From: a bacterium
GTDB lineage: Bacteria; JAHJDO01
Assembly (NCBI GenBank): GCA_030652805.1
Contig: JAUSPT010000084.1
Coordinates: 1 to 19,564 of the forward strand
DNA length: 19,564 nt
Direction: 5' to 3'
Part shown: positions 687-19,441 of the stretch, piece by piece
How positions within the stretch are numbered: position 1 is the first letter of the stretch
How the letters are laid out: the number at the start of each line of letters is the position of its first letter
Position numbers and translations under genes: made by a program
Notes under the pieces: model-generated
Database searches by the model: none
What the model was told of the DNA's origin: nothing
The model's input: only the letters and a program-made list of their open reading frames with translations

Positions 687-691
687 TTAAA

Positions 692-1048: not shown

Positions 1049-1062
1049 CTGATTGAGGAAGG

Positions 1063-1103: not shown

Positions 1104-1130
1104 TGTCAAATTAAGAAAGGATAGTGTGTT

Positions 1131-1163
1131 ATGCCTACTTATGAATATGAGTATTTAATATGA
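1131..1163 (+). CDS. Putative ten-codon leader peptide with an FmdB-like start
   Basis: ATG at 1131 is preceded by AAGAAAGG (1113-1120) and encodes [10 protein letters not shown], ending in TGA at 1161-1163. The stop overlaps the ATG of the DUF89 gene as ATGA, so ribosomes finishing the peptide could re-initiate. MPTYEYE is the characteristic opening of the FmdB-type zinc-ribbon family, but the first CxxC that should follow is absent. It may be a remnant of an fmdB-like gene retained as a coupling leader, or chance. Confidence 0.35.
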   Translation: MPTYEYEYLI

Positions 1164-2038: not shown

Positions 2039-2040
2039 TT

Positions 2041-2883: not shown

Positions 2884-2886
2884 TTT

Positions 2887-3498
2887 TTGGAAGCGAAATT
2901 GTTAGAAAATCATAAAAGATATTTAGAAAGAATAAACTTTTATAAAGACTTCGGCTATGATGTTGAAGAGGAAAGAAAGTTTATCATAGAAAAAGCATGT
3001 CCTCTTTATGGTGGTATATTAGAGGTGGGAACGGGTAAGGGATATTTTGCTATTGAACTCGCCAAAGAGAGATATAATTTTACTAGTATAGATATTTCTG
3101 ATGAGGAACAGGGATTCGCCAGACTCAATATAAAATATTTTGGCTTTGAAAAATATGTGGATTTCAGAATAGAGAATGCCGAAGGTCTAAGTTTTAAAGA
3201 TTGCAGCTTTGATATAATATTTTCTATTAACACAATACATCACCTTATTCACCCGATTAAAGCCATAGATGAGCTAATAAGGATAGTTAGTTTTGAAGGG
3301 AAGATTGTCCTAAGTGATTTTAATGAGGCAGGTTTAGAAGTGGTAGATAAGATTCACGCCAGCGAAGGAAGAAAACATGAAGCAGGTCAAACGAATTTAT
3401 CAGAGATAGCTATTTATTTGAAAAGCAAAGGATTTAATGTTCAAAAAGATAAAACTACGTTCCATAATATTGTTATAGCATATCAACAAACCATATAA
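2887..3498 (+). CDS. Class I SAM-dependent methyltransferase, substrate unknown
   Basis: The 203-residue protein shows the Rossmann methyltransferase signature: motif I LEVGTGKGYFA (about 45-55), an acidic strand-2 end (SIDIS, about 70-74) and motif IV/V region FDIIFSINTIHHL (about 108-120). It starts with TTG at 2887, preceded by GGGAG at 2876-2880 with 6-base spacing; no in-frame ATG fits better. The closest general class is small-molecule methyltransferases of the UbiE type. Placement directly after Mrp suggests an accessory role in the cluster module, but the substrate cannot be read from the sequence. A second, only distantly similar methyltransferase is at 4215. Confidence 0.8.
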   Translation: MEAKLLENHKRYLERINFYKDFGYDVEEERKFIIEKACPLYGGILEVGTGKGYFAIELAKERYNFTSIDISDEEQGFARLNIKYFGFEKYVDFRIENAEGLSFKDCSFDIIFSINTIHHLIHPIKAIDELIRIVSFEGKIVLSDFNEAGLEVVDKIHASEGRKHEAGQTNLSEIAIYLKSKGFNVQKDKTTFHNIVIAYQQTI

Positions 3499-3523
3499 TT
3501 TTAATGGATAAGTAAAGCATAGC

Positions 3524-3907
3524 ATGCAGGATTTAGTTAAAGATTTTTTAAAACAGAGGCGTTTTGCGGTAGTGGGCTCGTTTAGGAATGAGTCTAAATA
3601 TGCCTATCAGATTCTAAAAACATTAAAAAAAAGAAAGTATAAGGTTTATCCAGTTAACCCTCATCTTAAGGAAGTTGATAACCTAATTTGTTATCCCAGC
3701 GTTAAAGATATTCCTATAGTTTGCGATGTTGCTAATATAATTACTCCGCCAAAGATAACTGAGAGAATCGTTCAAGAATGCAAAGAGAAAGGAATCACTA
3801 GAGTATGGCTTCAGCCGGGGGCTGAAAGCCATGAAGCTATAAAATTTTGCCAAGAGAATGACATTAAAGTTATTCATGGTCTTTGCGTTATGTTTGAAAA
3901 AATTTAG
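3524..3907 (+). CDS. CoA-binding (YccU-type) Rossmann-domain protein
   Basis: The 127-residue protein is a stand-alone CoA-binding domain of the YccU family. It has an N-terminal nucleotide-binding strand and loop (FAVVGSFRNESKYAY, about 14-28), VYPVNPH near 43-49, a segment on inter-domain strands (VANIITPP, about 71-78) and the conserved WLQPGAE (about 95-101) near the C-terminus. Length is normal for the family, whose physiological role is poorly known. The ATG at 3524 has no strong SD nearby. It sits between the Mrp/methyltransferase pair and the J-domain gene with short gaps (25 and 18 bases), so it is part of the same array. Confidence 0.8.
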   Translation: MQDLVKDFLKQRRFAVVGSFRNESKYAYQILKTLKKRKYKVYPVNPHLKEVDNLICYPSVKDIPIVCDVANIITPPKITERIVQECKEKGITRVWLQPGAESHEAIKFCQENDIKVIHGLCVMFEKI

Positions 3908-3925
3908 TTTCTCAGGAGTGAAGAA

Positions 3926-4237
3926 ATGGCAGATTTTAAACAGATTGACGGAGCGCGAAAATTACTGGGATTGGAAGAATGTGCAACTTTGAAAGAGATA
4001 AAGAATGCGTATAGAAAACTTGCCTTTAAACACCATCCTGATAAATGCAAGGATGAAGAGAAAAAAAGGTGCGAGGAGATGTTTAAAAAGATAACTCATG
4101 CCAATGATATTATGATGAGCTATTGCGCTGGATATAAATATTCTTTTAAAGAAGAGGATGTAACAAAAGGGACAGCAGATAAAGAATTTTATGAGCACTT
4201 GAGGAGATTTTACGATGGATGGTTTGGGAATAAATAG
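3926..4237 (+). CDS. Small J-domain protein
   Basis: The 103-residue protein consists of a J domain at about 10-70 containing the essential HPD tripeptide (HHPDK, near 37-41) and a short C-terminal tail rich in aromatic and charged residues. It lacks the Gly/Phe, zinc-finger and client-binding regions of full DnaJ. It would stimulate an Hsp70 partner. Because IscU-like, Mrp and other Fe-S proteins are encoded in the same array, a specialised co-chaperone role in cluster transfer, analogous to HscB, is an attractive but unproven idea; the four-helix HscB C-terminal domain is absent. CAGGAGTG precedes the ATG. The 3' end overlaps the next gene by 23 bases. Confidence 0.85.
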   Translation: MADFKQIDGARKLLGLEECATLKEIKNAYRKLAFKHHPDKCKDEEKKRCEEMFKKITHANDIMMSYCAGYKYSFKEEDVTKGTADKEFYEHLRRFYDGWFGNK

Positions 4238-4862
4238 TATCTTTGATAGATATTATAAGAAATACGATGCTTGGTATGATAAGCATGAATTTGTCTATTT
4301 GTCAGAGCTTGAAGCTATTAAGAAAGTTTTACCAAATAAAGGTAAAGGGTTAGAAATCGGCGTAGGCACAGGAAGATTCGCATCTTCATTAGGAATTAAA
4401 TTTGGGATTGATTCTTCTAAAAAGATGCTTGCGATTGCCTCAAAAAGAGGAATAAATGTGAAATTGGGCAGGGGCGAGAAATTGCCTTATAAAGATTCGT
4501 TTTTTGACTACGTTGCCATTATAATCACATTATGTTTTGTCGACGATCCGCAGGAAGTTTTAGCGCAATCTTACAGAGTTTTAAAGGAAAACGGAAAGAT
4601 TGCAATCGGCATAGTAGATAAAAACAGCTTTTTAGGTAAATTTTATCAGAGAAAGGAAAGTATATTTTACAAACAGGCGAATTTTTTCAGTGTCGGGGAA
4701 GTGACAGATTTGCTTAAAGAGGCAGGATTCAAAAGATTCTCTTATTATCAAACAATATTTGAACTTCCAGATAAGATAAATTCAATTGAGAACCCGCAAG
4801 ATGGTTTTGGCAATGGCGGTTTTGTAGTAATATCAGGGAAAAAGATTACAGGAGAAAATTAA
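4215..4862 (+). CDS. Class I SAM-dependent methyltransferase (UbiE/Methyltransf_11 type)
   Basis: The 215-residue protein begins with the FDRYYKKYDAWYDKHEF segment common in this subgroup. It carries motif I LEIGVGTGRFA (about 45-55), FGIDSSKKML (about 62-71) and FFDYVAIIITLCFVDDP (about 97-113). The start at 4215 overlaps the J-domain gene by 23 bases, and GAGGAG at 4200-4205 is well placed. The overlap indicates translational coupling. The substrate is unknown. It lies directly before the double MinD-ferredoxin gene, whose start follows its stop by 12 bases. Confidence 0.82.
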   Translation: MDGLGINSIFDRYYKKYDAWYDKHEFVYLSELEAIKKVLPNKGKGLEIGVGTGRFASSLGIKFGIDSSKKMLAIASKRGINVKLGRGEKLPYKDSFFDYVAIIITLCFVDDPQEVLAQSYRVLKENGKIAIGIVDKNSFLGKFYQRKESIFYKQANFFSVGEVTDLLKEAGFKRFSYYQTIFELPDKINSIENPQDGFGNGGFVVISGKKITGEN

Positions 4863-4874
4863 AAGGAGCATATT

Positions 4875-6728
4875 ATGAATATAGCAATATCAAGTGGTAA
4901 GGGGGGAACAGGTAAAACTTTTGTCGCTACTAATATAGCAATTGCTTTTTCAAAAAAAGGAAAGAAGGTTTGTTATCTTGACTGTGATGTTGAAGAGCCG
5001 AATGGTCATCTTTTTCTCAAGCCTCGTATTGATAGAGAAGAAGATATCAGCTTACTGGCGCCTGTTGGGGTTGATAATGAGAAATGTATTAAATGCGGTA
5101 AGTGCCAGGATGCCTGTCGCTATAATGCAATAGCTGTAATAAAAGATAAGGTTCTATTCTTTCCTCAATTGTGTCATGTTTGCGGAGCCTGTAAGATTGT
5201 TTGTCCAGAGGATGCAATTATTGAAAAAGATAAGAAAATAGGGGTCCTGAAACATGGGAAAAGCGGCACAATAGATTTTCACTATGCGCTTCTTGAAACT
5301 GGTGAAGGAGGGATGTCTCCCAGATTGATTAAAAGAGTTAAAGAATGTGCTGGCAATGGAATAAATATACTTGATTCTTCTCCCGGGACTGCATGTCCTG
5401 TTGTGGAAACAGTAAAGGATGTTGATTTATGTGTGCTTGTTACAGATCCCACGCCTTTTGGGGTAAATGACCTGAAACTGGCTGTGGATATGTGCCGTAA
5501 GATAAATCGGGAACCGGTAGTCTTGGTTAACCGAGCTGAATATATGAACGATAATCTCAAAAAATACTGTAAGGAGCAGCAACTGGAACTTATAGGAGAG
5601 ATTCCGGATGACAGGAGAATAGCAGAAGTCTATTCTGTAGGGGATATAGTTGTGGAGAAACTGCCTCAATATAAAAAGCTATTTGAGGATATTGCTGAGA
5701 GGATAGAGAAACTGGCGCAGAAAAAGAGAGTTGTTAAAAAAATACGTCTCTCTGTAGAAAAAGAGGAAGAAAAAACAGATGATAAAAAAACAGAAAAAGC
5801 CAAGCCTGCATCTTTTTCTGCCGCAAATAAACCAAAGGAATTAGTTATTATAAGCGGAAAGGGAGGAACAGGAAAGACTTCTTTGGCAGCTTCTTTTGTT
5901 GCTCTGGCTAAAAAGACAATAATATCCGACTGTGATGTAGATGCAGCTGACCTGCATCTGCTTTTAGCTCCGCAAATTAAAAAAAGAGGGAATTTTAGCG
6001 GTGGTGTGACTGCAGAAATAGATCCAGAAAAGTGTACTGGTTGTAATAGGTGTAAGGATGCATGTCGGTTTTTTGCTATAGAAAGCTACAACAGCGAGTC
6101 TGGAAAAGAGTTATGCCGTATTGATCCTGTTGCTTGTGAAGGATGCGGCGTATGTTATCTTGTGTGTAAAGATTCAGCTGTAAAGGTAGAAGATGCTATT
6201 AATGGAGAGTGGTTTGTTTCAGAAACAAGATTTGGACCAATGACTCATGCAAAACTCGGAGTAGCTGAAGAGAATTCAGGAAGGCTGGTTACATTGGTAA
6301 GGAATAAGGCGGCCGAATCTGCCGCTGAGGTGGAGGAAAATAAGCTAATAATAGACGGCGCTCCGGGAACTGGTTGTCCTGTAATAGCCTCTATAACTGG
6401 TTCAGATTATGCCTTAATTGTTACAGAGCCGACTGTATCAGGTATTCATGATATGAAGCGCATTCTTGATGTGACAAGACACTTTGGAGTTACCTCAGGA
6501 ATTGTGGTAAATAAATATGACCTGAATATAGATATGACCGAGAAAATTAAAAATATAGCAAAAGACTATGATAGTGAATTCATTGGAACAATACCGTATG
6601 ATAAAAGGGTGACTGAAGCCCAGATGAAGGCATTATCCATTATTGAGTATACAGAAGACGGAGCCGTTGTAAAAAGCATAAAACAGATTTGGAAAAAGAT
6701 AAACTCTATTATTAACATAAATCAATAA
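4875..6728 (+). CDS. Double MinD-type P-loop ATPase with four [4Fe-4S] ferredoxin motifs (fusion of two tandem paralogues)
   Basis: The 617-residue protein contains two complete copies of a module that usually exists as two adjacent genes. Copy 1 (about 1-282) has Walker A GKGGTGKT (8-15) with two ferredoxin motifs, C71/C74/C77/C81 and C100/C103/C106/C110, inserted after the first strands. Copy 2 (about 323-617) has GKGGTGKT (328-335) with C387/C390/C393/C397 and C421/C424/C427/C431. A Lys/Glu-rich linker (about 285-322) joins them. All P-loop and cysteine residues are intact, so a pseudo-dimer with two ATP sites and up to four clusters is predicted. In the Desulfovibrio ORP locus two such ATPases are separate genes near Mrp and ORP. 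AAAAGGAG (4861-4868) precedes the ATG. Role: ATP-driven metal-cluster handling or redox coupling, inferred. Confidence 0.9.
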   Translation: MNIAISSGKGGTGKTFVATNIAIAFSKKGKKVCYLDCDVEEPNGHLFLKPRIDREEDISLLAPVGVDNEKCIKCGKCQDACRYNAIAVIKDKVLFFPQLCHVCGACKIVCPEDAIIEKDKKIGVLKHGKSGTIDFHYALLETGEGGMSPRLIKRVKECAGNGINILDSSPGTACPVVETVKDVDLCVLVTDPTPFGVNDLKLAVDMCRKINREPVVLVNRAEYMNDNLKKYCKEQQLELIGEIPDDRRIAEVYSVGDIVVEKLPQYKKLFEDIAERIEKLAQKKRVVKKIRLSVEKEEEKTDDKKTEKAKPASFSAANKPKELVIISGKGGTGKTSLAASFVALAKKTIISDCDVDAADLHLLLAPQIKKRGNFSGGVTAEIDPEKCTGCNRCKDACRFFAIESYNSESGKELCRIDPVACEGCGVCYLVCKDSAVKVEDAINGEWFVSETRFGPMTHAKLGVAEENSGRLVTLVRNKAAESAAEVEENKLIIDGAPGTGCPVIASITGSDYALIVTEPTVSGIHDMKRILDVTRHFGVTSGIVVNKYDLNIDMTEKIKNIAKDYDSEFIGTIPYDKRVTEAQMKALSIIEYTEDGAVVKSIKQIWKKINSIININQ

Positions 6729-6743
6729 CAAGGAGGTAATCAA

Positions 6744-6986
6744 ATGCCAAGAGGAGACGGAACAGGACCAGGAGGAATGGGCCCAGGAACAGGAAGAGGC
6801 AGGGGAGGTGGAGTCGGTGCAGGACAAGGCGGAGGACGCGGCAGAATGAGCGGCACACGTCCGGGAGCAGGTCCAAGCGGAAACTGTGTTTGTCCAAGCT
6901 GCGGGACAAAGGTCCCACATCAGGCAGGAGTCCCATGTTATAATGTCAACTGTCCCAAATGCGGGACAAAAATGGTCAGAGGATAG
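6744..6986 (+). CDS. DUF5320-like glycine-rich protein with a C-terminal zinc ribbon
   Basis: The 80-residue protein opens MPRGDGTGPGGMGPGTGR, nearly identical to the product encoded at 692. It has a Gly/Arg-rich stretch to about 45 and ends in a compact cysteine domain with C48, C50, C53, C65, C70 and C73 (CPSCG and CPKCG knuckles with His59 between). This should bind zinc or iron. A near-perfect SD, AAGGAGGTAATC, precedes the ATG, predicting strong translation. Local base composition is much richer in G than in neighbouring genes because of the Gly/Arg codons. The cytoplasmic role is unknown. Its position between the MinD-ferredoxin ATPase and thioredoxin suggests a partner or metal-binding accessory. 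Confidence 0.78.
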   Translation: MPRGDGTGPGGMGPGTGRGRGGGVGAGQGGGRGRMSGTRPGAGPSGNCVCPSCGTKVPHQAGVPCYNVNCPKCGTKMVRG

Positions 6987-7048
6987 ATTAAGAGTGACAA
7001 AAATTCTGCAAGTTAGACAAAAAATATTAAATAAAAAAGGGTATCAAA

Positions 7049-7366
7049 GTGGAAATCAAAGTAGATGATGCAAATTTTAAGCAGGAGGTATTAGAATCAG
7101 ATATTCCTGTCCTTGTGGATTTTTGGGCAGAGTGGTGCGGCCCATGCCGTATGATTGCTCCTGCAGTTGAGGAGATAGCTGAAGAATACAATGGTAAGTT
7201 AAAAGTCTGTAAAGTAAATGTTGATGAAGCTCCAGGAACATCTTCAGAATACGGCATTATGAGCATACCTACTTTAGCTATCTTTAAAGACGGTGCTGTA
7301 GTAGACAAGGTTATAGGTGTAGTTCCCAAGACAGAACTTGTTTCTAAAATTACGCCTTATATTTGA
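7049..7366 (+). CDS. Thioredoxin
   Basis: This 105-residue single-domain thioredoxin has the canonical active site WCGPC (C30, C33), the strand before it (LVDFWAE) and the cis-proline loop SIPT (Pro74). It would reduce protein disulfides, probably with a reductase encoded elsewhere or with the flavoprotein at 7869. The start is GTG at 7049, preceded by AAGGG at 7-base spacing; the first residues [10 protein letters not shown] align with normal thioredoxin N-termini. An extra Cys (C54) outside the active site is present. It begins a three-gene redox block. Confidence 0.93.
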
Positions 7367-7464
7367 TTGCAGAAACCATAGAGAAGTGTGTGGTGATAGG
7401 TAGTTACAAAATTTAGAGTAGAAGATAAACAGAATTAAACTATAAGAGCCAAAGGAGAAAGACA

Positions 7465-7839
7465 ATGGCAAAATTACCAGAAGCTGTCAGGAAAGCGATT
7501 GACAAACAGGATGTTTTCTCAGTTGCTACATGCAGTTCTGAAGGAGTTCCAAATGTTGTTTATGTTAGCTGGTTAAAAGTAATAGATGATGAAACTGTAT
7601 TAATATCAGATAATTATTTCAGTAAAACACGCAGCAATATTTTGAGTAATCCAAAGATGGCTTTTGTTGTTAGCGATAAGGATAAAGGTTCATTTCAAGT
7701 AAAGGGAAGTGTTGAGCGATTGACGGATGGTCCAATGTTTGAAGAAATGCAGGAGTGGGTTCGTGATGATTTGCCAAGGGTTGCGGCTGTTGTTTTGCAT
7801 GTGGCAGAAGTGTATAACGGAGCCAAACGGCTTATATAA
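7465..7839 (+). CDS. Pyridoxamine 5'-phosphate oxidase-like FMN-binding split-barrel protein
   Basis: The 124-residue protein matches the short PNPOx-like split-barrel family: FSVATCSSEGVPNVVYVSWL (about 18-37) forms the first hairpin, followed by LISDNYFSKTRSNILSNP (about 51-68) and a strand with FQVKGSVERL (about 77-86). Members bind FMN or related cofactors and reduce varied substrates; true PNPOx activity is unlikely at this length. AAAGGAGAAA (7451-7460) gives a strong start at 7465. The 98-base gap before it contains no clear promoter or terminator. It is followed after 29 bases by the flavin disulfide reductase, suggesting a joint redox function. Confidence 0.82.
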   Translation: MAKLPEAVRKAIDKQDVFSVATCSSEGVPNVVYVSWLKVIDDETVLISDNYFSKTRSNILSNPKMAFVVSDKDKGSFQVKGSVERLTDGPMFEEMQEWVRDDLPRVAAVVLHVAEVYNGAKRLI

Positions 7840-7868
7840 AAAGGTTAATAAAAAAAGAAAGGTTAATG

Positions 7869-9224
7869 ATGAAAACTTATGATGTGATTGTTATTGGCGG
7901 CAGCGCGGCAGGGATTCCTGCTGCTATTACGGCAAAGCGGCATTATCCGAATAAAAGCGTATTGCTTATACGTAAAGAGAATAAAGTATTAATACCGTGT
8001 GGCATTCCCTATATTTTTGGGACAGTCGGCACCCCTGACAAAAATCTCATACCTGATAAGGTACTTGAGCAGAATGGAATTAAGTTGCTCATCGACCCTG
8101 TTGTACATATAGACAATAAAAATTGTGTTGTTGAAACAAAAGCAGGTGAACAGGTGCGCTATAAAAAACTTGTTCTTGCTACTGGTTCTGAGCCAATGAT
8201 TCCTCCAATACCCGGTATTGATAAGGGGAATATTTTTTCTATAAAAAAGGATGTTACATATCTAAATGATATGATTCATGCAATGGAGCATGCTTCCGAT
8301 CTGGTAATAGTTGGATGCGGTTTTATTGGTGTAGAACTTGCAGAGGAGTGCAAAAAGAGAAAGGAAAACTTAAACATTACTATAGTTGAGATGATGCATC
8401 ATTGCTTACAATTGGTATATGATAAGGACTTTTGTTTAAAAGCTGAGGAAACACTTATTGCTCAGGGCGTTAATCTTATGGTAGACGAGAAAGTAGAGTC
8501 TTTTACGGGCAATGATAAGGTAGAAGGGATTAAATTAAAAAGTGGAAAAGAAATTAAGTCAGATATGGTGATCCTTGGTATTGGCGCTGTTTCTAATATT
8601 GGACTGGCGCAGGAAATCGGATTGGAAATAGGACCTGCAAGAGGTATCATGGTAAACCGCTATATGCAGACAAGTGATCCAAATATTTTTGCGTGCGGTG
8701 ACTGTACAGAAAAGGTTTCCTTCTTTGATGGAAAAGCTTCTACTCTCAAACTGGCGTCTATAGCTACAATGGAAGCGCGTATAGCAGGAGCCAATTTGTT
8801 TGCATCCAGCCGCTTGAATATGGGTGTTATAGGTGTATTCTCTACAACCTTAGGTGATTCTGCATTTGCAGCCGCCGGTCTGACTGAAGAACAGGCCCAA
8901 AAGCAGGGATATAATATTATTGTGGGAGAGAGCGAAGCAATAAACCGTCATCCTGGCGGTATGCCTGGCGCAGAGAATTTAAAGGTAAAATTAGTTTTTG
9001 AAGCAGGTACACAAATTATTTTAGGCGGGCAAATATGCGGAGCTAAGAGCGGCGGAGAACTTATCAATGCTATTAGCGCCTTTGTGCATCAACGAATGAC
9101 TGCTAATGATATAGCCACGTTTCAAATGGGAACTCATCCAGCTCTTACTGCATCTCCAATTGCTTATCAGTTGGTAAATGCAGCGGAGATTGCAATTAAA
9201 CAATTAAAAATGAAAAGGAGGTGA
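7869..9224 (+). CDS. CoA-disulfide reductase/NADH oxidase-like FAD-dependent oxidoreductase
   Basis: This is a two-dinucleotide-domain flavoprotein of 451 residues. The FAD motif is GGSAAG (10-15), a redox cysteine lies in the IPCGIPY loop (C44), ATGSEP is at 104-109, the NAD(P)H motif is GCGFIG (149-154) and the second FAD contact is ACGDC (276-279). A single active-site Cys at the CGLPY position is the mark of the CoADR/Nox/Npr group, which uses one cysteine with CoA or peroxide rather than a CxxxxC disulfide. It could reduce CoA disulfides, persulfides or oxygen; the exact substrate is uncertain. Two adjacent ATGs exist (7866 and 7869); GAAAGG (7857-7862) fits 7869 better. Its terminal Arg-Arg-stop codons supply the SD of the next gene. 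Confidence 0.88.
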   Translation: MKTYDVIVIGGSAAGIPAAITAKRHYPNKSVLLIRKENKVLIPCGIPYIFGTVGTPDKNLIPDKVLEQNGIKLLIDPVVHIDNKNCVVETKAGEQVRYKKLVLATGSEPMIPPIPGIDKGNIFSIKKDVTYLNDMIHAMEHASDLVIVGCGFIGVELAEECKKRKENLNITIVEMMHHCLQLVYDKDFCLKAEETLIAQGVNLMVDEKVESFTGNDKVEGIKLKSGKEIKSDMVILGIGAVSNIGLAQEIGLEIGPARGIMVNRYMQTSDPNIFACGDCTEKVSFFDGKASTLKLASIATMEARIAGANLFASSRLNMGVIGVFSTTLGDSAFAAAGLTEEQAQKQGYNIIVGESEAINRHPGGMPGAENLKVKLVFEAGTQIILGGQICGAKSGGELINAISAFVHQRMTANDIATFQMGTHPALTASPIAYQLVNAAEIAIKQLKMKRR

Positions 9225-9229
9225 TTAAG

Positions 9230-9619
9230 ATGCGTGTAGCGATTTCAACAGATGGAGATTCTGTCTCAGCTCATTTTGGAAGGTGTCCATCTTACACGAT
9301 TGTAGATATTGAAGATGGAAAGGTAATTAAGAAGGAGGTTGTTGACAATCCAGGGCATGTGCCTGGTGCTATACCTCAGTTTCTTCATGAAAAGGGAGTT
9401 GAGTGTATTATAGCCGGAGGAATGGGAGCAAGAGCTGTGGGCTTTTTTGATGAATTCGGTATTAAGCCAATTGTAGGTGTGCAGGGGAGAATAGATGAGA
9501 TCATTGAAAAACTAATCAAAGGCGAGCTTAAGGGAGGGGCAAGCTTGTGCAAGCCTAGTGCTGGCAAAGGATATGGCATAGACAAGACTCTATGTGATCA
9601 TCCAGATGAAAACAAATGA
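9230..9619 (+). CDS. NifX/NifB-type (dinitrogenase Fe-Mo cofactor biosynthesis family, ORP-like) protein, copy A
   Basis: The 129-residue protein belongs to the NifX/NafY/VnfX fold family, which includes the Mo-Cu orange protein (ORP) of Desulfovibrio. Visible marks are MRVAISTDG at the N-terminus, AHFGRCPSY (about 14-22), a Gly-rich loop GGMGARAVGFF (about 64-74) and a C-terminal tail with additional Cys and His (CDHPDE). Members bind metal clusters non-covalently or covalently and pass them on. The start is the ATG at 9230; the in-frame GTG at 9221 lies inside the SD AAAGGAGGTGA and is rejected. The stop overlaps an ATG at 9616, but the following gene probably begins at 9646. No nitrogenase genes are present, so a role in Fe-Mo cofactor is not implied. 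Confidence 0.85.
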   Translation: MRVAISTDGDSVSAHFGRCPSYTIVDIEDGKVIKKEVVDNPGHVPGAIPQFLHEKGVECIIAGGMGARAVGFFDEFGIKPIVGVQGRIDEIIEKLIKGELKGGASLCKPSAGKGYGIDKTLCDHPDENK

Positions 9620-9645
9620 ATGTAACCAACAAAGGAGATGAGATT

Positions 9646-10014
9646 ATGAAAATTTGTATAACTTCACAAGGAGATAATTTAGATTCGCAGGTTGACCCAA
9701 GGTTTGGGAGATGTCAGTATTTTATTATTACAGATACAGAAACTTCAGAGTTTGAAGCAGTTCAGAATCCGAATTTATCCGGTATGGGCGGAGTCGGCAT
9801 TCAGTCAGCTCAATTTATGGCAGAAAAACAGGTAAAGGCAGTTTTGACAGGGAATGTTGGCCCAAATGCTTTTCAAGGGTTACAAGCAGCAGGTGTAGAG
9901 ATAATAACGGGTGTATCCGGCAATATTAAAGAAGCGATAGAAAAATACAATAAAGGTGAACTTAAAGCAACTCAGGGACCAAGTGTAAATTCAAAATTTG
10001 GCACGGGGAAATAA
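9646..10014 (+). CDS. NifX/NifB-type (ORP-like) protein, copy B
   Basis: A second family member, 122 residues from ATG 9646, begins MKICITSQGDNLDSQVDPRF and has RFGRCQYF (about 18-25) and TGNVGPNAFQGL (about 72-83). AAAGGAGATGA at 9631-9641 is well spaced for 9646, so the upstream in-frame ATG at 9616, which would add ten unconserved residues, is not favoured. It differs clearly from copy A (a different N-terminal loop, with the acidic VDPRF insertion), so the two are diverged paralogues and may form a heterodimer or act in sequence. It precedes the IscU-type scaffold by 3 bases, suggesting cluster transfer between these products. Confidence 0.87.
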   Translation: MKICITSQGDNLDSQVDPRFGRCQYFIITDTETSEFEAVQNPNLSGMGGVGIQSAQFMAEKQVKAVLTGNVGPNAFQGLQAAGVEIITGVSGNIKEAIEKYNKGELKATQGPSVNSKFGTGK

Positions 10015-10017
10015 TAA

Positions 10018-10455
10018 ATGAGTAAAGATTTTAATCATCTCGTTGATAAATTACAGGAATGTGTGATTAAGGATGCAAGTAAGATTTATTCAGAGCAGGT
10101 AATTAAGCAGTTTACTCATCCACAGAATGTTGGGAGGATGAACGACCCGGACGGTGCCGCTACAATAAAAGGACCATGTGGAGATACAGTAGAGATTTAC
10201 CTGATAATAAAGAATGATGAAATTACAGAATCTCTGTTTTTTACTGATGGATGTGGTGCAACAATAGCTTGTGGGTCAATTACAACACGGTTAGCAAAAG
10301 GGAAAACTATTAATGAGGTGTTAAAAATTTCTCCTGCAGATATTATAGAGGAACTGGGTGGGCTTCCTGGGGAGAACTTACATTGTGCAATTCTGACAGT
10401 GAATACCCTGCATAAGGCAGTCGCAGATTATTTACTGAAGAAGAGTAATAGCTGA
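10018..10455 (+). CDS. IscU/NifU-N-type Fe-S cluster scaffold
   Basis: The 145-residue protein carries the IscU active-site set: GPCGD (C54, D56), the second cysteine in DGCGATIAC (C79) and the HC pair (H122, C123). These residues hold the nascent [2Fe-2S] cluster in IscU. An extra cysteine, C85, stands where IscU usually has Ser. The first 25 residues extend beyond the usual N-terminus and contain another Cys (C15). No NifU-type ferredoxin or C-terminal domain follows. No cysteine desulfurase is encoded in the window, so sulfur must come from elsewhere. It is the last gene of the first array, coupled closely to the ORP-like copy B gene. Confidence 0.88.
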   Translation: MSKDFNHLVDKLQECVIKDASKIYSEQVIKQFTHPQNVGRMNDPDGAATIKGPCGDTVEIYLIIKNDEITESLFFTDGCGATIACGSITTRLAKGKTINEVLKISPADIIEELGGLPGENLHCAILTVNTLHKAVADYLLKKSNS

Positions 10456-10505: not shown

Positions 10506-12317
10506 ATGACTAAAGAAGAAATAACAGCCCTTATATCGTCTTTTGTTAATCTGATATTAACAGTTATAAAGTTTTGTCTGGCTATATATACAGGCAGTAT
10601 AGCTTTGCTTGCTGAAGCATGGCACTCATTATCTGATATATTTTCGTCATTTATGGTTTTTGCTGCCATCAGGGCAGATAGAATAGGCAGTATATCAGAA
10701 GAAAGGGCAACTCAATCTCAGGAGATCTATCGCGACACAGGTTCTATTTTTAAAGATGAAGACTCACACCAAAAAGAAAAGCACTCATTAGCAGGTAAAC
10801 GGTTCTTCACTGGACTAGAGGAAAAAGTTGCTGTTGGAATAGGTCTTTTTCTTATTTTTGCATCATACAAGATTTTTATGAAAGTAATTCATCCTGAGAC
10901 TATTGCTATTCGAAATCCAGTTCCAGCAGCTTTGGTTATATTAATATTAGCTCTATTTTCATATCTTTTATTTAGATTTGAAGTATATGTTGGAGAAAAA
11001 AGCAAATCTCCGGGACTTGTAGCGGATGGTTATCACTCAAAAATAGATATGTTTGCTTCAATGCTGGTATCTGTGGCGCTTGTAAGCGAACACATCGGAT
11101 TTCGTATAGATAAGATAGCAGCCGTCGTTATTTGCGCAGCTATACTTATACATGCTCTACATGTGCTTACAAGAGCTTTAAAAGCATATATTCATCCGCA
11201 AGGAAAAACCTATCTAAAGGGTGCTCAACCGCACGAAGACATATTAGTGGTATTTATTAAGGAGAAGCTCCCTTTATTGATAAATCGTTTATATGACGCA
11301 TTATCTAGGAAATTGCATCTGACTGGCAATTATAATCAGAATAAAAAGATATTAAATAAGATCATAACAATTGTAGTTTTAATAATTGTTGCCGGTATAT
11401 ATTTTTCTTCAGGGATATATATGCTGAAGCCCTATGAAAAAGCAATTGTGGAGCGCTTTGGTAAACCCCTGAATATTACGAAACCTGTTTTGCCTGGTCT
11501 TCATTATGCGCTTCCTTTACCTATTGACAGGATTAACAGAGTGGATACTGAGAGAATAAGGCGAATAAGTATTGGCTATAAAGCTAGTAAAGACTATCAG
11601 TTAATATTATGGACAAATGTTCATTATAAAGAAGAACTGCCTTTTTTAACAGGAGAGAACAGTTTTCTAGGTCTAACTATGAATGTGCATTACAAAGTTA
11701 AAGATATATATGCCTTTTTATACAAAAATTCATCCCCAGAGGATTTAATGATGCAGCTTGCCAATACCGTATTGACGAACACTCTATCAAAAAGAGCCTT
11801 CTTTCCAACAATCACTGTTGACAGGGAAAGACTTGAAGAGGAAATTCTCGAAACTCTCCAGACGAAACTTGACGAATTTAAAACAGGAATATGGATAGAA
11901 GGCATACACTTTAGAGACATGCATCCTCCTACAGATATTGCTCCTGCTTTTGAGGATGTTGTAAGCGCTCAGGAGGATTATGAAACATACATTCATAAAG
12001 CAAAAGGCTATGAAAATAAAGTAATTCCTCATGCTAGAGCCACAAAGATTAAAATGAAAAACGAAGCCATTGCTTACAGAAATAATGTGCTGGCAAAGAG
12101 CAATGGAGAAGCTGGAAGGTTTCTCGATCAGCAGGCTGCATATAGAAAGCATCCTGATATTACGGAAACCCGTCTTTATATAGAAGGAATGGAAGAAATT
12201 CTACCTGACGTCCAGAAGTTTATTATATGTCCTAAAGAAGGAGAAAAGATTCCTGACATCTGGTTTTTCCAAGGTAATCAATCAGGGATTTCCACAATAA
12301 TTAGAGAGGAGAAATAA
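10506..12317 (+). CDS. Fusion of a cation diffusion facilitator (CDF) transporter with HflK (SPFH domain)
   Basis: This 603-residue protein joins two families. Residues 1-225 form a CDF transporter of about six membrane segments. HSLSD (H40, D44) in TM2 and HSKID (H177, D181) in TM5 supply the HxxxD pairs of the metal site, resembling zinc-type CDFs; a long His/Asp-containing loop (about 62-106) separates TM2 and TM3. The usual cytoplasmic C-terminal domain is missing, replaced by a linker (226-282). A seventh membrane segment (about 283-303) leads into an HflK domain (VERFGKPLN near 315-323, LPGLHYALPLPIDR near 329-342, then an SPFH coiled-coil to 603). Predicted topology fits both halves: CDF ends inside, HflK lies outside. 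No good SD precedes the ATG; TATACT sits at 10496-10501. Role: metal efflux coupled to a membrane scaffold, inferred. Confidence 0.85.
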   Translation: MTKEEITALISSFVNLILTVIKFCLAIYTGSIALLAEAWHSLSDIFSSFMVFAAIRADRIGSISEERATQSQEIYRDTGSIFKDEDSHQKEKHSLAGKRFFTGLEEKVAVGIGLFLIFASYKIFMKVIHPETIAIRNPVPAALVILILALFSYLLFRFEVYVGEKSKSPGLVADGYHSKIDMFASMLVSVALVSEHIGFRIDKIAAVVICAAILIHALHVLTRALKAYIHPQGKTYLKGAQPHEDILVVFIKEKLPLLINRLYDALSRKLHLTGNYNQNKKILNKIITIVVLIIVAGIYFSSGIYMLKPYEKAIVERFGKPLNITKPVLPGLHYALPLPIDRINRVDTERIRRISIGYKASKDYQLILWTNVHYKEELPFLTGENSFLGLTMNVHYKVKDIYAFLYKNSSPEDLMMQLANTVLTNTLSKRAFFPTITVDRERLEEEILETLQTKLDEFKTGIWIEGIHFRDMHPPTDIAPAFEDVVSAQEDYETYIHKAKGYENKVIPHARATKIKMKNEAIAYRNNVLAKSNGEAGRFLDQQAAYRKHPDITETRLYIEGMEEILPDVQKFIICPKEGEKIPDIWFFQGNQSGISTIIREEK

Positions 12318-12320
12318 CAA

Positions 12321-13214
12321 ATGAAAGCAGGAAATAGGTTTTTAATAATAATGCTTGTAGTTGTTGTAGGTCTATCATTTTTAGTCTTCTACAAGGTTGA
12401 TGAGAGAGAACATGTTATCATTACTCAGTTTGGACACCCTGTTAAAACTATCGGGAATCCGGGCCTTTACTATAAATGGCCTGACCCTGTTCAAACAGTT
12501 AACAGATTTGAAAAAAGACTAATGCTTTATAGAACCAGATTGATTGAATATCTTACACAGGATAAAAAAAATATAATTGTGCAGTGTTTTGTATGCTGGA
12601 GGATTGATAATCCGTTAGAATTTTTTCAGGCAGTTGGAAATAATATAAATGCCGCAAAAAAGATCGATGATATTATTTGCGCTCAGCTTGGAAGCGTTCT
12701 GGGTAATTATGAAATATCGTCAATAATATCAACAAAAAAAAATGCTGTAAAAATCAAGGAGATAGAGAAAACTATAACAAAGAATAGCAACAAAAAAACT
12801 ATAGATTCTTATGGCATTGAAATAAAAGAAATAGGGATATGTCGGCTTGCATTGCCTCAGGATAATGTTGAAAGCGTGTATAAAAGAATGAAGTCTGAAA
12901 GAGAATCAATTGCAAACAAATACCGCGCAGAAGGCAGAGAAAAGGCAGATATAATAAGATCTGAGGCTAATAAAATTCAGAGTGACATACTGTCTGAAGC
13001 CTATAAAGATGCTGAGATTATAAAGGGAGAGGGAGATGCCGCTGCTACAAAAATATATGCAGAAGCTTTTGAAAAGGATCCTGCGTTTTACAGGTTTATG
13101 AGAACTTTAGAATCTTACAAAAGGATAATTGATGACAAAACTACAGTTGTTCTCTCATCCAAATCCGATCTATTTAAGTATCTCAATAAAAAGACAAATG
13201 AGGATAGTAAATAG
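12321..13214 (+). CDS. hflC: HflC-type SPFH/prohibitin membrane protease modulator
   Basis: The 297-residue protein has one N-terminal membrane anchor (about 7-25) and an SPFH domain beginning VDEREHVIITQFGHPV (about 26-41). It also has the HflC signature in the coiled-coil, SERESIANKYRAEGREKAD (near 193-211) and GEGDAAATKIYAEAFEKDP (near 236-254), and ends with the L-S-S-K-S-DLFKYL segment typical of HflC. HflC pairs with HflK in a large membrane cage that regulates FtsH. A 3-base gap from the CDF-HflK fusion and a 1-base overlap with the next gene show co-translation. GAGAGGAGAAAT precedes its ATG. FtsH itself is not in the window. Confidence 0.92.
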   Translation: MKAGNRFLIIMLVVVVGLSFLVFYKVDEREHVIITQFGHPVKTIGNPGLYYKWPDPVQTVNRFEKRLMLYRTRLIEYLTQDKKNIIVQCFVCWRIDNPLEFFQAVGNNINAAKKIDDIICAQLGSVLGNYEISSIISTKKNAVKIKEIEKTITKNSNKKTIDSYGIEIKEIGICRLALPQDNVESVYKRMKSERESIANKYRAEGREKADIIRSEANKIQSDILSEAYKDAEIIKGEGDAAATKIYAEAFEKDPAFYRFMRTLESYKRIIDDKTTVVLSSKSDLFKYLNKKTNEDSK

Positions 13215-14188
13215 TGCATAAAGACCGCAAAAATCTTATTGAACTAAAAAAAGATGTTCTATCTGCCCTTGCGACAGATATACATAAGCTATATCGCTGG
13301 TTTGCTGTATTACTATTCGGAATATACATGCTATCGGGCATATATATTGTAAAGACAAATGAAGTTGGACTTGTCAAGCGATTTGGGAAAGTAATACGGG
13401 AGAATGTTGAGTCCGGCATTCATTATCGTATGCCATGGCCAATAGACGAAGTTGATAAGGTGAAGATCAAAGAAGTTATGAGAACAGAACTTTCGTTTTG
13501 GTCGGATAAGATAGATAAAGACACACTTCCGTCTTACTGCATAACAGGGGATAAAAATATAGTTCATCTTAAGATGATAATTAATTATCAAATAAAAGAG
13601 CCAAAGAAGTTTTTATATAGAATTTATAACTCAGATAAGATCCTTGAGAATTCCATGTATTCAGCCATAATCGAGGCAATTGCTAAAGTAAATGTTGATG
13701 ATGTTCTTACTACAGCTAAGTATAGATTTCAGCAGGATACTATGCGTTTATGTCAGGAAAGGTTGGATTTTCTGGGAACTGGTTTAGAGATAAAGTCAGT
13801 AGAACTTAAAAATATAGAGCCTCCATCAGAAGTTCTTCCAATGTTCAAAGATGTAGTCAACGCCAGAGAAGACGCTTCAACTATGATTCATGATGCAGAA
13901 TCATATTCTAACAAGATCATTCCAAATGCGCAGGCAGAGGCTGCAAAAACAATCAGTCAGGCGCAGGCGTATAAGATAAAGAAGACAGCCTATGCGCAGG
14001 GAGAGACAAATAAATTCCTGAAGATATTAGAGGAGTATAAGAAAGCAGAGGATATTACAGAGTTTAGGTTACATGTGGAGACGTTGGAGAAAGTCATGCC
14101 TAAAGCAAAAAAATATATCACTGATTCACACACAAATGGCAAGGAAATAGCAAATACCAAGTTTTTTATAAACTCTGAGGGCAAGTAA
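13214..14188 (+). CDS. hflK: HflK-type SPFH/prohibitin protein (second HflK of the operon)
   Basis: The 324-residue protein has a cytoplasmic N-terminus, one membrane segment (about 28-48) and an HflK-like SPFH domain: VGLVKRFGKVIRENVESGIHY (about 52-72) and PWPIDEVDKV (about 74-83). The helical C-terminal half has the IEPPSEVLPMFKDVVNARED segment (about 201-220) that typifies HflK. The start is GTG at 13214, whose G is also the last base of the hflC stop (TAGTG); AGGA lies 6-9 bases upstream. It resembles the HflK half of the fusion protein at 10506, so the operon encodes two different HflK partners and one HflC. Its stop is one base from the stop of the convergent TPR gene. Confidence 0.9.
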   Translation: MHKDRKNLIELKKDVLSALATDIHKLYRWFAVLLFGIYMLSGIYIVKTNEVGLVKRFGKVIRENVESGIHYRMPWPIDEVDKVKIKEVMRTELSFWSDKIDKDTLPSYCITGDKNIVHLKMIINYQIKEPKKFLYRIYNSDKILENSMYSAIIEAIAKVNVDDVLTTAKYRFQQDTMRLCQERLDFLGTGLEIKSVELKNIEPPSEVLPMFKDVVNAREDASTMIHDAESYSNKIIPNAQAEAAKTISQAQAYKIKKTAYAQGETNKFLKILEEYKKAEDITEFRLHVETLEKVMPKAKKYITDSHTNGKEIANTKFFINSEGK

Positions 14189-14189
14189 T

Positions 14190-15020
14190 CTATTCTTTTC
14201 CCCGTTCCCATTTATCTATAAAATTCTTAGCTTTCTTATTTTCTGGAAATAACCTGAGAACTTGTTTGTAACAATCTATTGCCTTTTGTGTATGTCCTTG
14301 AAATTTATGTGAGAAAGCAAGGAATCTGAGTATGCCTGCTTTATCATATTCATCCATTTTGGCCTGCGATTTGAGGGCCCTCTCAAAATAGTATTGAGCT
14401 TTTTTATAATCCTTTAACTTTGAAAAATAGACTATTCCCATTTCCTCAGATATTTGGTAGCTATCCGGATTATTTTTGATCCCCTCTGCCATAAATTTAA
14501 TCGCTTCATCTAATTTCCCAAGCCTGAACGCAAGCCAGTATCCTCCAACAGCGTACGCTCTCACATGATGGGGATTGAATATAGTTGCAAGCTTGAACCA
14601 TGGCATAAGCTCATCCTCTCTTTTGCTGTGCAAATGCTCTGTAATATTCGGCTTGAGATTGTATTCAAGCTTAGCAAATAATTTGTCTAATCTGTTATAT
14701 TTCAATTTATGTCTGTGCTCAATTTCTTTGTGATTATGTTCATGTTTGTGTTGTGTATGCCCTCCCATGTCTGCCTCTTCTAAAATATGACAATGTCCAT
14801 GTTCAGTTACTCCCTTATGAAGATATTCATCGGTTTTTAGCCATAATAGATCTGCGGAACCAGAAAAGACGCCACCTAAAATTTTACTTACAATTTCTCC
14901 ACCCGGAATAACAGAAGTGCTTTGGGCTGTATCCTCTGCAGAATAATGATATAGCTGGAGAGGGATTTGAAGCAGTATAACAGCAAGCAGTAATAGAATT
15001 AAAAATATAATTTTGGGCAT
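14190..15020 (-). CDS. Membrane-anchored TPR protein with a histidine-rich loop
   Basis: The 276-residue product has a single N-terminal hydrophobic segment (about 4-20, a signal anchor), a conserved-looking stretch to about 65, and a histidine-rich region with eleven His between 67 and 103 (runs such as HTQHKHEHNHKEIEHRH). TPR-like helices follow from about 137 to 270 (LGKLDEAIKFMAEGIKNNP, then DYKKAQYYFERALKS and GHTQKAIDCYKQVLRLFP). The His region could bind Ni, Zn or Co, fitting the nickel transporter genes upstream. The gene lies 30 bases downstream of the ABC-2 permease and is probably the last gene of that exporter unit, acting on the outer face of the membrane. The exact function is unknown. 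Confidence 0.8.
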   Translation of the reverse strand: MPKIIFLILLLLAVILLQIPLQLYHYSAEDTAQSTSVIPGGEIVSKILGGVFSGSADLLWLKTDEYLHKGVTEHGHCHILEEADMGGHTQHKHEHNHKEIEHRHKLKYNRLDKLFAKLEYNLKPNITEHLHSKREDELMPWFKLATIFNPHHVRAYAVGGYWLAFRLGKLDEAIKFMAEGIKNNPDSYQISEEMGIVYFSKLKDYKKAQYYFERALKSQAKMDEYDKAGILRFLAFSHKFQGHTQKAIDCYKQVLRLFPENKKAKNFIDKWERGKE

Positions 15021-16676: not shown

Positions 16677-17399
16677 CTACCTTAAAGATAGGGGTACTTC
16701 TAACCAGTGGGATTCCATAAGAGATTTATTACTTAGAATTTCTTTTGTACCTCCATAGGCGGCTATTTTGCCTTTATCCAGTACAACTACTTTATTGCAA
16801 ATATCTAAAATCAATTCTAGATCATGGCCAGAAATTATCTTGGTAACTCTTATACCTCTAAGTACTTCCATTAGATGTCGTCTTGACCTCGGGTCTAAAT
16901 TACTTGAAGGCTCATCTAAAACTAGAATTTCTGGGTTCATTGATAAAACAGTAGCTAAAGATATCCTCTTTTTTTCACCAAAACTTAGATGATGAGATAC
17001 CCTGTTAATTGAGTCTAACATATCTACTTCTTTCAAGGCTTTTTTGACAGATGAATTAATTTCTTCTTTTTCTTTTCCTATATTAACTAATCCAAAGGCA
17101 ACATCATCAAAAACAGTGGGCATAAAGAGTTGATCTTCTGGATCCTGGAAAACCAAGCCGACTTTACTTCTAATGAAATCTAAATTCTTATCAGTTATTT
17201 CTAATCCCATAATCTCTACTTTGCCACTTCCCCCTAAGATCCCATTTAAATGAAGAAGCAGAGTAGATTTTCCTGCACCATTTGGTCCAATCAAACCAAT
17301 AGATTCTCCTTCAAAGATGCTTAAGTCCACTCCTCGGAGCGCCTTCGTGCCGTCTGAATAGGTATATTTTAAGCCTTTTATTTTTATCATCTCTTTCAT
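16677..17399 (-). CDS. nikO: ECF-type nickel/cobalt transporter ATPase (NikO/CbiO)
   Basis: The 240-residue ATPase has Walker A GPNGAGKS (38-45), a Q-loop FQDPEDQLF, the ECF-style signature LSFGEKKR (near 128-135), Walker B ILVLDEPSSNLDP and H-loop SGHD. FQDPEDQLF together with LSFGxKKR is characteristic of CbiO/NikO/EcfA proteins. It powers metal uptake with NikQ, whose gene overlaps its start by 4 bases. A single ATPase gene, as here, is normal for nickel/cobalt ECF systems. Nickel rather than cobalt is inferred from the NikK and NikL neighbours. Confidence 0.9.
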   Translation of the reverse strand: MKEMIKIKGLKYTYSDGTKALRGVDLSIFEGESIGLIGPNGAGKSTLLLHLNGILGGSGKVEIMGLEITDKNLDFIRSKVGLVFQDPEDQLFMPTVFDDVAFGLVNIGKEKEEINSSVKKALKEVDMLDSINRVSHHLSFGEKKRISLATVLSMNPEILVLDEPSSNLDPRSRRHLMEVLRGIRVTKIISGHDLELILDICNKVVVLDKGKIAAYGGTKEILSNKSLMESHWLEVPLSLR

Positions 17400-18157
17400 A
17401 GCATGTGCCCTGTAAGATGTAACATGACTGCCATGATTATAATTAACGATGCCTTAAGAAAATCATTGTTTGAGAGTTTAAATTCATCCAGAGTCTTTAT
17501 GCTTCCCTTGTATCCTCTTGAGACCATGGCATTATACATTCGCTGTGTTCTTTCAAAAGCTCGAATAAACAGCATCCCTATCAAATTGCCTGTTATCTTC
17601 AGGGTATGGATATTTGTTCCTCTCTTAAACAATCTTGCTTTAGCAGCTGTTGACATTTTCGCTAGTTCTCCCAACAGGACAAAGATATAACGATATGTAA
17701 ACATAACTAGTTGAATTAATTTATTAGGGAATTTAAGTCTTTGAAGCGCCTTTATAGTCTTATGAAATTCCATTGTTCCAATCATAGGGAAAATAATCAT
17801 ACAAATACTTATTGCTCTTAAAGCTATTAAGGAAGAGAGTCTCAATCCCTCATGAGAAACACCTATAACACTCAGAATAATAGTCTTCTGACCGGGAACA
17901 GTCAAAGGCATAATAATAAAGAAAAATAGGACAGAAAGAATTACCCATCTTAAATGTTTTAGCACAAAAGAAAATGGAATCCTGGATAGAAAGAGAAGAA
18001 TTATAGCCAAAATGAGTCCTAAAGAAGCAGATAAGAGATTAGGAAGTAGAGCGATAGATAAAATCAAAAAAGAAAAGGAAATAAGCTTAACTCTTGGATC
18101 CCAGGAATGAAACACAGATTTAAGATGTGCGTATTTATCAATCTCTGGAAGATGCAT
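17396..18157 (-). CDS. nikQ: ECF-type nickel/cobalt transporter transmembrane component (NikQ/CbiQ)
   Basis: The 253-residue membrane protein has hydrophobic segments near 25-58, 70-87, 110-128, 148-165 and a C-terminal one. The N-terminal segment WDPRVKLISF (19-28) and the two cytoplasmic coupling motifs AAKARLFKRG (171-180) and AMVSRGYKG (210-218) identify the EcfT/CbiQ family; these motifs contact the ATPase. The start overlaps the end of the NikL gene by 20 bases, and the stop overlaps the NikO start, so the transporter genes are translated as one unit. Confidence 0.9.
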   Translation of the reverse strand: MHLPEIDKYAHLKSVFHSWDPRVKLISFSFLILSIALLPNLLSASLGLILAIILLFLSRIPFSFVLKHLRWVILSVLFFFIIMPLTVPGQKTIILSVIGVSHEGLRLSSLIALRAISICMIIFPMIGTMEFHKTIKALQRLKFPNKLIQLVMFTYRYIFVLLGELAKMSTAAKARLFKRGTNIHTLKITGNLIGMLFIRAFERTQRMYNAMVSRGYKGSIKTLDEFKLSNNDFLKASLIIIMAVMLHLTGHML

Positions 18158-18764
18158 TTTTTTTGTGGTTATCCTTATTTTTCCCGAGGAAGTATGCGAT
18201 AATTCCCATAATGCCCAAAATATATCCTATGCCACCTATTACCTCCCTGAAGGATACTTTCTTCTGCTGTGTCTTTGCGAGCTCCCTCATAATCGGCTTT
18301 AATTTTTTATCAAGAGAACTGTTGATAATCATTTCGATTTGGTCTAAATCAACTTGTGAGATCTCTTCGACTTCGGACTCTTTAGGTTTTGGCTCTTGCA
18401 GTCTTTGCTCAAGCTTTATTTCAGGCAATTCATCTTTTGAGAGGGCATATGAATTTTTATGACCCATGGAGGCAATAAGGACTATTTTTAAGTCGTCTTT
18501 CTTGGGAGGTTTAAAATTAAACTGTCCCTCTTTATTGCTCTTACCCTCCAGCAATCTTTTCCCCTGACTGTCGTACACCTCAATTAGACCGCCTTCTACC
18601 TTTCTTCCATCTGGGAAATAACTCTCGGTATAGACCGTATCACCTTCTACATACGCAAAAATATTTACCTTATGGGCAAAGGCAGAAGTAGTAAAGAGTG
18701 AAGAGTAAAGAGTGAAAAGCAGAAATATAATTTTGATTTTTGATTTTTGATTTTTGATTTTCAT
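18138..18764 (-). CDS. nikL: NikL-type accessory subunit of an ECF nickel transporter
   Basis: The 208-residue protein has a signal peptide (1-30, ending TTSAFA) followed by mature [12 protein letters not shown], a carboxypeptidase-regulatory-like beta domain (about 40-85) and GHKNSYAL (101-108). A charged helix (about 110-170) and a C-terminal membrane anchor (about 176-194) complete it. This layout matches the extracytoplasmic NikL/CbiL component. The ATG overlaps the stop of the NikK gene (ATGA). The signal peptide is encoded largely by two simple repeats (see separate entries), whose periods of 7 and 14 bases are not multiples of three, so gain or loss of a unit would abolish the protein. 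Function in transport is accessory; the mechanism is not read from sequence. Confidence 0.8.
18691..18718. repeat. 14-bp tandem repeat inside the NikL signal-peptide code
   Basis: GTAAAGAGTGAA occurs at 18691-18702 and 18705-18716, two copies with a 14-base period (plus-strand reading). On the coding strand it encodes about residues 17-25 of NikL, in the hydrophobic core of its signal peptide. The period is not a multiple of three. Confidence 0.7.
18731..18761. repeat. Heptanucleotide tandem repeat at the start of the NikL gene
   Basis: About four consecutive units of TGATTTT (plus strand; ATCAAAA on the coding strand) lie immediately after the NikL start codon; the G residues at 18735, 18742, 18749 and 18756 show the 7-base period. 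They encode the Lys/Ile/Asn n-region of the signal peptide. Slippage by one unit would shift the reading frame. Confidence 0.8.
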
Positions 18765-19441
18765 TTCATGTCTCTTGTCCTAACCCAATAAACAGCACCG
18801 ATTTCAATGGATTTATCTTTTCCGCCAGGGTCTTTCATTGTCCATGAAGCTTCATTCAGTGCAGCAAAACCCCACCAGCCGGCCTTGGGCATAGCGTATG
18901 AAAACACACCATTTGCATCAGCCTTGACTACCTGCGTGATATATGGATCAGCAGGAGGTTTTATCTTACCATCTTCGTTGTAATATTCCACTTCTACCTC
19001 TGCAAAAGGGACAGGTCTTCCCTTTACCTTTACCATCCCAGTGAATACATTTCCTGTCCAAAGTCCATATGGTCTAGTTAATGGCACAATCTCTGTCTCT
19101 AGCCCAATTTCTCCATCCCAGCCTTCTTCAAGTCCCAGTGCATTCACACATACCTTAGTATAGTGAATAATGTAACAGTCTTCTGCCGGCTCCCAGTACG
19201 GTTTGGGCTCGACATAAAATGTGTAGTCTCCAGGCCTCCTGATTTTATACATAGTTTCCCAGTAGGTAAAATCTTTCGTCTGGTCAATCCATCTTCCTTT
19301 CTTGGACTGGAGAGTCGGAAGCAGAGACACATTCTTGCCACCAACTCTTACTCCAAAGTTCACTGGTTTTTCCATTTCCATGTAATGCCCTTCCATTGGG
19401 TGAATGAACTTTATATCTAATTTAATGTATAGGAATTTCAA
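18761..19441 (-). CDS. nikK: NikK-type (DUF4198) nickel-transport accessory protein, N-terminus apparently missing
   Basis: The 226-residue reading frame matches DUF4198/Nik[10 protein letters not shown] (about 10-18), [11 protein letters not shown] (about 23-33), [21 protein letters not shown] (about 68-88), [13 protein letters not shown] and the conserved [21 protein letters not shown] (near 113-133). NikK proteins are extracytoplasmic and begin with a signal peptide and a His-containing mature N-terminus. Here the frame opens from TTG at 19441 straight into the conserved core, and a stop (TGA at 19456-19454) blocks any upstream extension. There is no signal peptide, so the product as it stands would stay in the cytoplasm. 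Either the 5' end is lost or frameshifted, or the gene is decaying. Its stop overlaps the NikL start. Confidence 0.7.

Follow-up and report, generated by a model that had tools for sequence, protein, structure and literature searches.

Why would a metal exporter be built into a subunit of a membrane cage? The question is raised by a gene on a stretch of 19,564 nucleotides (contig JAUSPT010000084.1, assembly GCA_030652805.1, from a bacterium of the lineage JAHJDO01), called the window below. This gene, K1, fuses a cation diffusion facilitator (CDF) module to a protein of the HflK type, and genes for HflC and for a second HflK, K2, follow it. CDF proteins export divalent ions, and in this family an HDHD site such as that of K1 would point to zinc. 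The reading that we prefer, and consider rather probable, is that the products of the three genes make up an HflKC-like assembly of their own, with a built-in exporter for divalent metals of the zinc type. The features of the three genes are as follows (TM, transmembrane).

10506-12317, + strand: K1, the CDF-HflK fusion gene, 603 residues (PF01545, PF01145, TIGR01933, AlphaFold2, fold matches)
10506-11207, + strand: CDF (YiiP-like) six-TM module, residues 1-234 (PF01545; predicted YiiP-like fold, Z 22.1)
10623-10637, + strand: TM2 metal-site pair H40/D44 (sequence, alignment of relatives)
11034-11048, + strand: TM5 metal-site pair H177/D181 (sequence, alignment of relatives)
11208-11330, + strand: linker rich in Lys/Arg where a CDF would have its C-terminal domain, with a predicted helix at residues 246-269
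11331-11408, + strand: HflK membrane anchor, the seventh TM helix, residues 276-301 (AlphaFold2 model, hydropathy)
11424-12008, + strand: SPFH/Band 7 domain of K1, residues 307-501 (Pfam; HflK fold)
11610-11624, + strand: K1-specific motif W369-x3-H373 (comparison of K1, K2 and ordinary HflK)
11922-11930, + strand: H473-P-P motif of K1 (same comparison)
12321-13214, + strand: HflC of the cassette, 297 residues (TIGR01932, 200.9 bits, cut-off 134.4)
13214-14188, + strand: K2, the second HflK, GTG start, 324 residues (TIGR01933, 206.7 bits, cut-off 159.4)

The first-pass annotation of the window had described K1 as one uninterrupted frame of 603 codons in which a CDF exporter with two metal-site pairs, devoid of the usual C-terminal domain, runs through a further membrane segment into an HflK-type SPFH domain. 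Each part of this description was borne out. No internal stop was found, and because both alternative frames are full of stops at codons 225-285, the K1 frame is continuous across the junction of its two halves. The protein scored 75.1 bits against the Pfam model Cation_efflux (PF01545, cut-off 26.6), 68.0 bits against Band_7 (PF01145, cut-off 23.6) and 190.4 bits against the full HflK model TIGR01933 of NCBIfam, above the curated cut-off of 159.4. Against the full-length CDF model TIGR01297, which spans the C-terminal domain, it reached 70.0 bits and stayed just under the cut-off of 82.35, as expected since that domain is missing. H40, D44, H177 and D181 stand where they had been placed.

An AlphaFold2 model of K1, built on 16 related fusions (mean predicted local distance difference test score, pLDDT, 73; predicted template modelling score 0.41), contains six helices, the linker helix, the seventh membrane helix, the SPFH domain and a long helix. 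In this predicted structure residues 1-234 match the six-TM fold of YiiP (8f6k; Z 22.1, root-mean-square deviation 2.4, 197 residues) and E. coli HflK (7vhq) is matched by residues 286-592 (Z 17.0, 267 residues) with a root-mean-square deviation of 35, which is probably due to a different placement of the long helix. The linker between the two membrane parts carries 11 Lys/Arg and 4 Asp/Glu residues and so fits the cytoplasmic side under the positive-inside rule, in agreement with the earlier expectation that one topology would suit both halves. K1 is thus like YiiP, ZnT and FieF in the fold and the HxxxD/HxxxD site of its first 234 residues, and differs from them in its missing C-terminal domain and its fusion to HflK.

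The metal site is conserved. Among 23 aligned CDF-type modules, with a mean column identity of 40%, D44 and H177 are invariant (23/23 each), D181 is found in 22 and H40 in 21. K1 is the sole PF01545 protein found in the window's genome, which is 95.6% complete, and this is consistent with a working exporter.

As had been reported for the window, HflC and K2 follow K1 with almost no spacing (+3 nt between K1 and HflC, -1 nt between HflC and K2). The order K1-HflC-K2, on a single strand and with near-zero gaps, was found in the 33 loci of our gap table, and loci with a second type of exporter, described below, are ordered alike. About 43 collinear same-strand cassettes of the form exporter-HflK, HflC, HflK were counted among complete loci; some contigs stop within the cassette. 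The HflC/HflK pair, when checked, proved to be adjacent to the fusion almost always. In genome G381 the cassette HflC was read as two open reading frames (L057 1326-2253), reflecting a frameshift either in the gene or in the assembly. Scans for promoters and terminators returned site numbers not above those in shuffled sequences.

The fusion is not confined to the window's genus, a restriction that carriers in other groups rule out. It occurs in three further genomes of the genus, with 79-83% identity, and in all but one of the five genomes available for the window's phylum, and CDF-type fusions were also found outside that phylum in a sample of 385 genomes across the domain. Whole small phyla were then covered with a fusion profile, to which fusions scored about 500-780 bits versus 310 bits for ordinary HflK. 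The fusion was found in 7/8 genomes of the G138 group, 5/8 of the G222 group, 2/7 of the G039 group and two of three in both the G028 and the G290 groups. The cassette is thereby present in seven or more groups that count as separate phyla, including those of the window and of G236, the latter with the second exporter type. In a plasmid search the matches listed were to the HflK half only, none of them spanning 80% of the fusion.

This second type came to light in three fusions with no N-terminal match to CDF. All three have a permease instead (ArsP_1 in 3/3), and two of them scored 361 and 371 bits against NF033936, the NCBIfam model for Cu/Zn efflux proteins of the SO_0444 family (cut-off 300). 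A wider search and reading of loci raised the number of SO_0444-type fused proteins to 13, and the seven that were tested against NF033936 all exceeded its cut-off (348-375 bits). The order fusion, HflC, HflK is kept wherever the contig permits, except for a second copy in genome G367 (C10, L155), where HflC and K2 were absent from the surrounding 15 kb. At three loci the SO_0444-type cassette has an additional HflC-like gene in its vicinity (L154 11679-12587, L156 4991-5899 and L157 10763-11677). The SO_0444 family is unrelated to CDF, yet it occupies the place of the CDF module in these 13 proteins; since two unrelated kinds of pump are found at the same place, the purpose of the cage seems to be the housing or control of such an exporter. 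In Shewanella oneidensis, SO_0444 is needed under zinc and copper stress, as shown with complementation (PMC3219624), and a homologue in Nitratiruptor is induced by cadmium and copper and was deemed central to detoxification by the authors (PMC10092412). The family does not occur in the window's cassette; a stand-alone SO_0444/ArsP_1-type permease is encoded elsewhere in the same genome, at L161 (G000:C71) 4647-5690.

In a third, divergent group of fusions (G231, G381, G260, G254, G117 and G340, with G276 and G152 alike) the N-terminal part has six predicted helices and lacks the metal ligands. No Pfam family exceeded its cut-off for this part in the three proteins scanned. Its profile could be aligned to that of CDF from end to end (hhalign, 97% probability, E 7.5e-11), the predicted structure resembles YiiP (Z 20.5), and in one of two trees the HflK half of these proteins falls with CDF-type K1 (100/100). 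The profile match and the predicted fold led us to reject an unknown transporter; from this profile comparison and model, the group is best read as a degenerate CDF that would have lost its transport site.

Trees of HflK sequences (96 and 101 sequences) place K1 and K2 apart from ordinary HflK. Ordinary HflK forms one clade that excludes K1 and K2 in both trees (99/99 and 99/98), and K1 falls outside K2 and ordinary HflK in both, whichever exporter module is attached. K2 is a single clade adjoining ordinary HflK in one tree, the first (96/83), and splits into two groups in the other. The cassettes share ancestry: the K1 and K2 trees mirror each other, and across 35 cassettes the distances between K1 proteins vary together with those between K2 proteins (r 0.85, with 0 of 2000 permutations as high). 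K1 also carries motifs of its own. A W-x3-H motif precedes the LTGD strand of the SPFH domain in every CDF-type K1 with that region and in 7/7 divergent K1, counting the variants WDSLH and WQSYH (the G210 sequence is truncated); it occurs in 0/35 K2 and 0/18 ordinary HflK, and in none of the SO_0444-type proteins examined. The histidine of the HPP motif (H473) is shared by every CDF-type and divergent K1 that was read and by 6/18 ordinary HflK; no K2 has it. The pLDDT of the K1 model is 46-55 around residues 361-380, too low for the three-dimensional placement of H373 and H473 to be read there. The W-x3-H motif is possibly a hook by which, as the first-pass annotation had suggested, the SPFH part could take over the sensing role of the CDF C-terminal domain, but the SO_0444-type fusions examined lack it.

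An ordinary hflK-hflC pair is encoded in the window's genome as well, which corrects the first-pass annotation and makes the cassette a second, specialised set. The ordinary genes were seen at two places, L067 (G000:C62) and L068 (G000:C54), one of which ends at a contig end; this is either a real duplicate or an effect of assembly. FtsH lies away from the cassette in this genome and is present in 12 of the 14 cassette genomes tested, an M41 search finding none in G004 and G175. With ordinary hflK-hflC and FtsH both elsewhere, the cassette is, we think, a specialised cage and not the cell's FtsH cage. The earlier proposal of an exporter inside an HflK/C-type cage around FtsH is therefore doubtful in its last part; its first part, which would entail co-assembly and export, gained strength from the adjacency of the pair and the exchange of unrelated exporters.

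The genes upstream of the cassette, which make up a cluster of the ORP (orange protein complex) type at 210-10455, include the following.

10018-10455, + strand: NifU/IscU-type Fe-S scaffold, the directly upstream neighbour (PF01592)
9221-10014, + strand: two Orp8/NifX-like cofactor-binding proteins, 9221-9619 and 9616-10014 (PF02579)
4875-6728, + strand: double MinD-type ATPase with ferredoxin inserts, Orp3/Orp4-like
2041-2883, + strand: Mrp/ApbC Fe-S carrier, scoring 373 bits (cut-off 450) against MrpORP, the model closest to it

Further neighbours in the window are a DUF5320 protein, an ARMT1-like phosphatase and a Fur-family regulator. ORP-type neighbours were found at the window and about nine other cassettes, on both sides of the cassette in G175, and were absent at most cassettes in the stretch read. 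A sigma-54/PAS regulator stands beside the ORP-type genes, as in the ORP operons of Desulfovibrio (PMC6345978). The Orp8-like, MinD-ferredoxin, Mrp and regulator genes of that set recur in the window and beside several other cassettes; HflK does not figure in the paper on the Desulfovibrio set. A link between the cassette and ORP-type genes is suggestive. In G002 (L066 5328-12578) a run of Fur, ZnuA, ZnuC, ZnuB, a TonB receptor, ExbB, ExbD and TonB, of which ExbB and ExbD were named from sequence reading only, lies upstream, the cassette following 47 bp downstream; this is a cassette whose CDF module lacks H40. On the other side of the window's cassette, and convergent with it at a distance of 1 nt, a gene at 14190-15020 (- strand) encodes a TPR protein whose N-terminal part includes a hydrophobic segment and which also has a stretch rich in His (GHCHILEEADMGGHTQHKHEHNHKEIEHRHK), possibly a metal-binding neighbour. 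CbiQ (PF02361), a CbiO-like ATPase and a DUF4198 protein are encoded at 16677-19441 (- strand), probably for cobalt/nickel uptake of the energy-coupling factor type.

How might such an assembly work? In E. coli, 24 subunits, HflK in alternation with HflC, surround FtsH in an assembly over the membrane that is either closed or nautilus-shaped (PMC12048511). In the K1 chain a short linker, positively charged and cytoplasmic, would connect a six-helix CDF module with both ends in the cytoplasm to the HflK anchor, and the SPFH domain would follow in the periplasm. K1, HflC and K2 would come together on the inner membrane as a cage or a patch, every cage being studded with exporters, and Zn2+ or a similar ion would be released beside, or into, the space beneath the periplasmic hat. 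Assembly of the cage may substitute for the C-terminal domain that regulates and dimerises other CDF proteins, and could in this way gate export. In lineages with ORP-type or Zn-uptake neighbours, the assembly would probably help to keep metals balanced around the proteins of metal cofactors (ORP-type) and of metal uptake. As a more tentative extension, which we regard as doubtful, the SPFH cage would be a metal-export compartment, in which several exporter modules per ring feed an enclosed periplasmic space and the WxxxH and HPP histidines of K1, or neighbouring proteins, receive the ions; exporter families would be interchangeable, and the exporter of one clade would now be a non-transporting part.

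Several observations weigh against a built-in exporter. H40, which the first-pass annotation had given without qualification, is Ala in G002 and G003, close relatives within the window's own genus, and D181 is Asn in G275. The fusion of G094 has no adjoining HflC or K2. The co-variation of K1 and K2 distances would be expected anyway from the common descent of linked genes, and the clade with the fold and no site indicates that the module can persist without canonical transport. That clade, which keeps both CDF fold and cassette without metal ligands, would suit a fused exporter acting as a regulator or metal sensor of a protease complex of the FtsH-HflK/C type, with metal binding altering cage opening or the choice of substrates. 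HflK and HflC do govern the access of FtsH to membrane substrates (PMC12048511), and most of the cassette genomes tested have FtsH. We nevertheless find a sensor unlikely: the transport site is strongly conserved in most members, the swap to another family of exporters speaks for export as such, FtsH was not recognised as a recurrent neighbour of the cassettes read, a separate ordinary hflKC is present, and two cassette genomes gave no FtsH in the M41 search.

The divergent type and the two H40A proteins could also be taken to mean that the CDF or SO_0444 part is a mere membrane anchor or position marker for an SPFH scaffold that does the work. We consider this more improbable still, as anchoring would not preserve four polar intramembrane ligands and HflK has an anchor helix of its own. 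That two genes were joined by a chimeric assembly or a missed frameshift has a negligible probability; nothing was found in its favour, the in-frame junction recurs in independent genomes of many groups, and the orthologues in the three other genomes of the genus exclude it.

The cassette stands close to known systems. K1, HflC and K2 pass or approach the models of the FtsH modulators HflK and HflC, with an HflK fold and adjacent genes, but the cassette has three genes instead of two, K1 bears an exporter and the WxxxH motif, neither K1 nor K2 belongs to the clade of ordinary HflK, and the ordinary pair coexists with them. The entry of stomatin and aquaporin 1 (PDB 9zd2), by its title, is likewise an SPFH assembly with a membrane transport protein; going by that title, the partner there is a separate protein, whereas in K1 the exporter is covalently part of the subunit. 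No description of a fusion between HflK and a metal exporter was found in the open-licence literature that was searched. As far as that literature shows, this real and widespread architecture is undescribed; its component families are all known, and what is new is their combination, the two-exporter form and the degenerate branch.

The purpose of SPFH cages is largely open, and most proposals are drawn from indirect effects. In these fusions a cargo, a metal exporter, has become covalently attached to a subunit of the cage in the course of evolution, and this has happened with two unrelated exporter families. Through this covalent link, housing or controlling a transporter becomes directly testable as a function of such cages, and it would also be a new mode of regulation for CDF exporters that lack the usual C-terminal domain.

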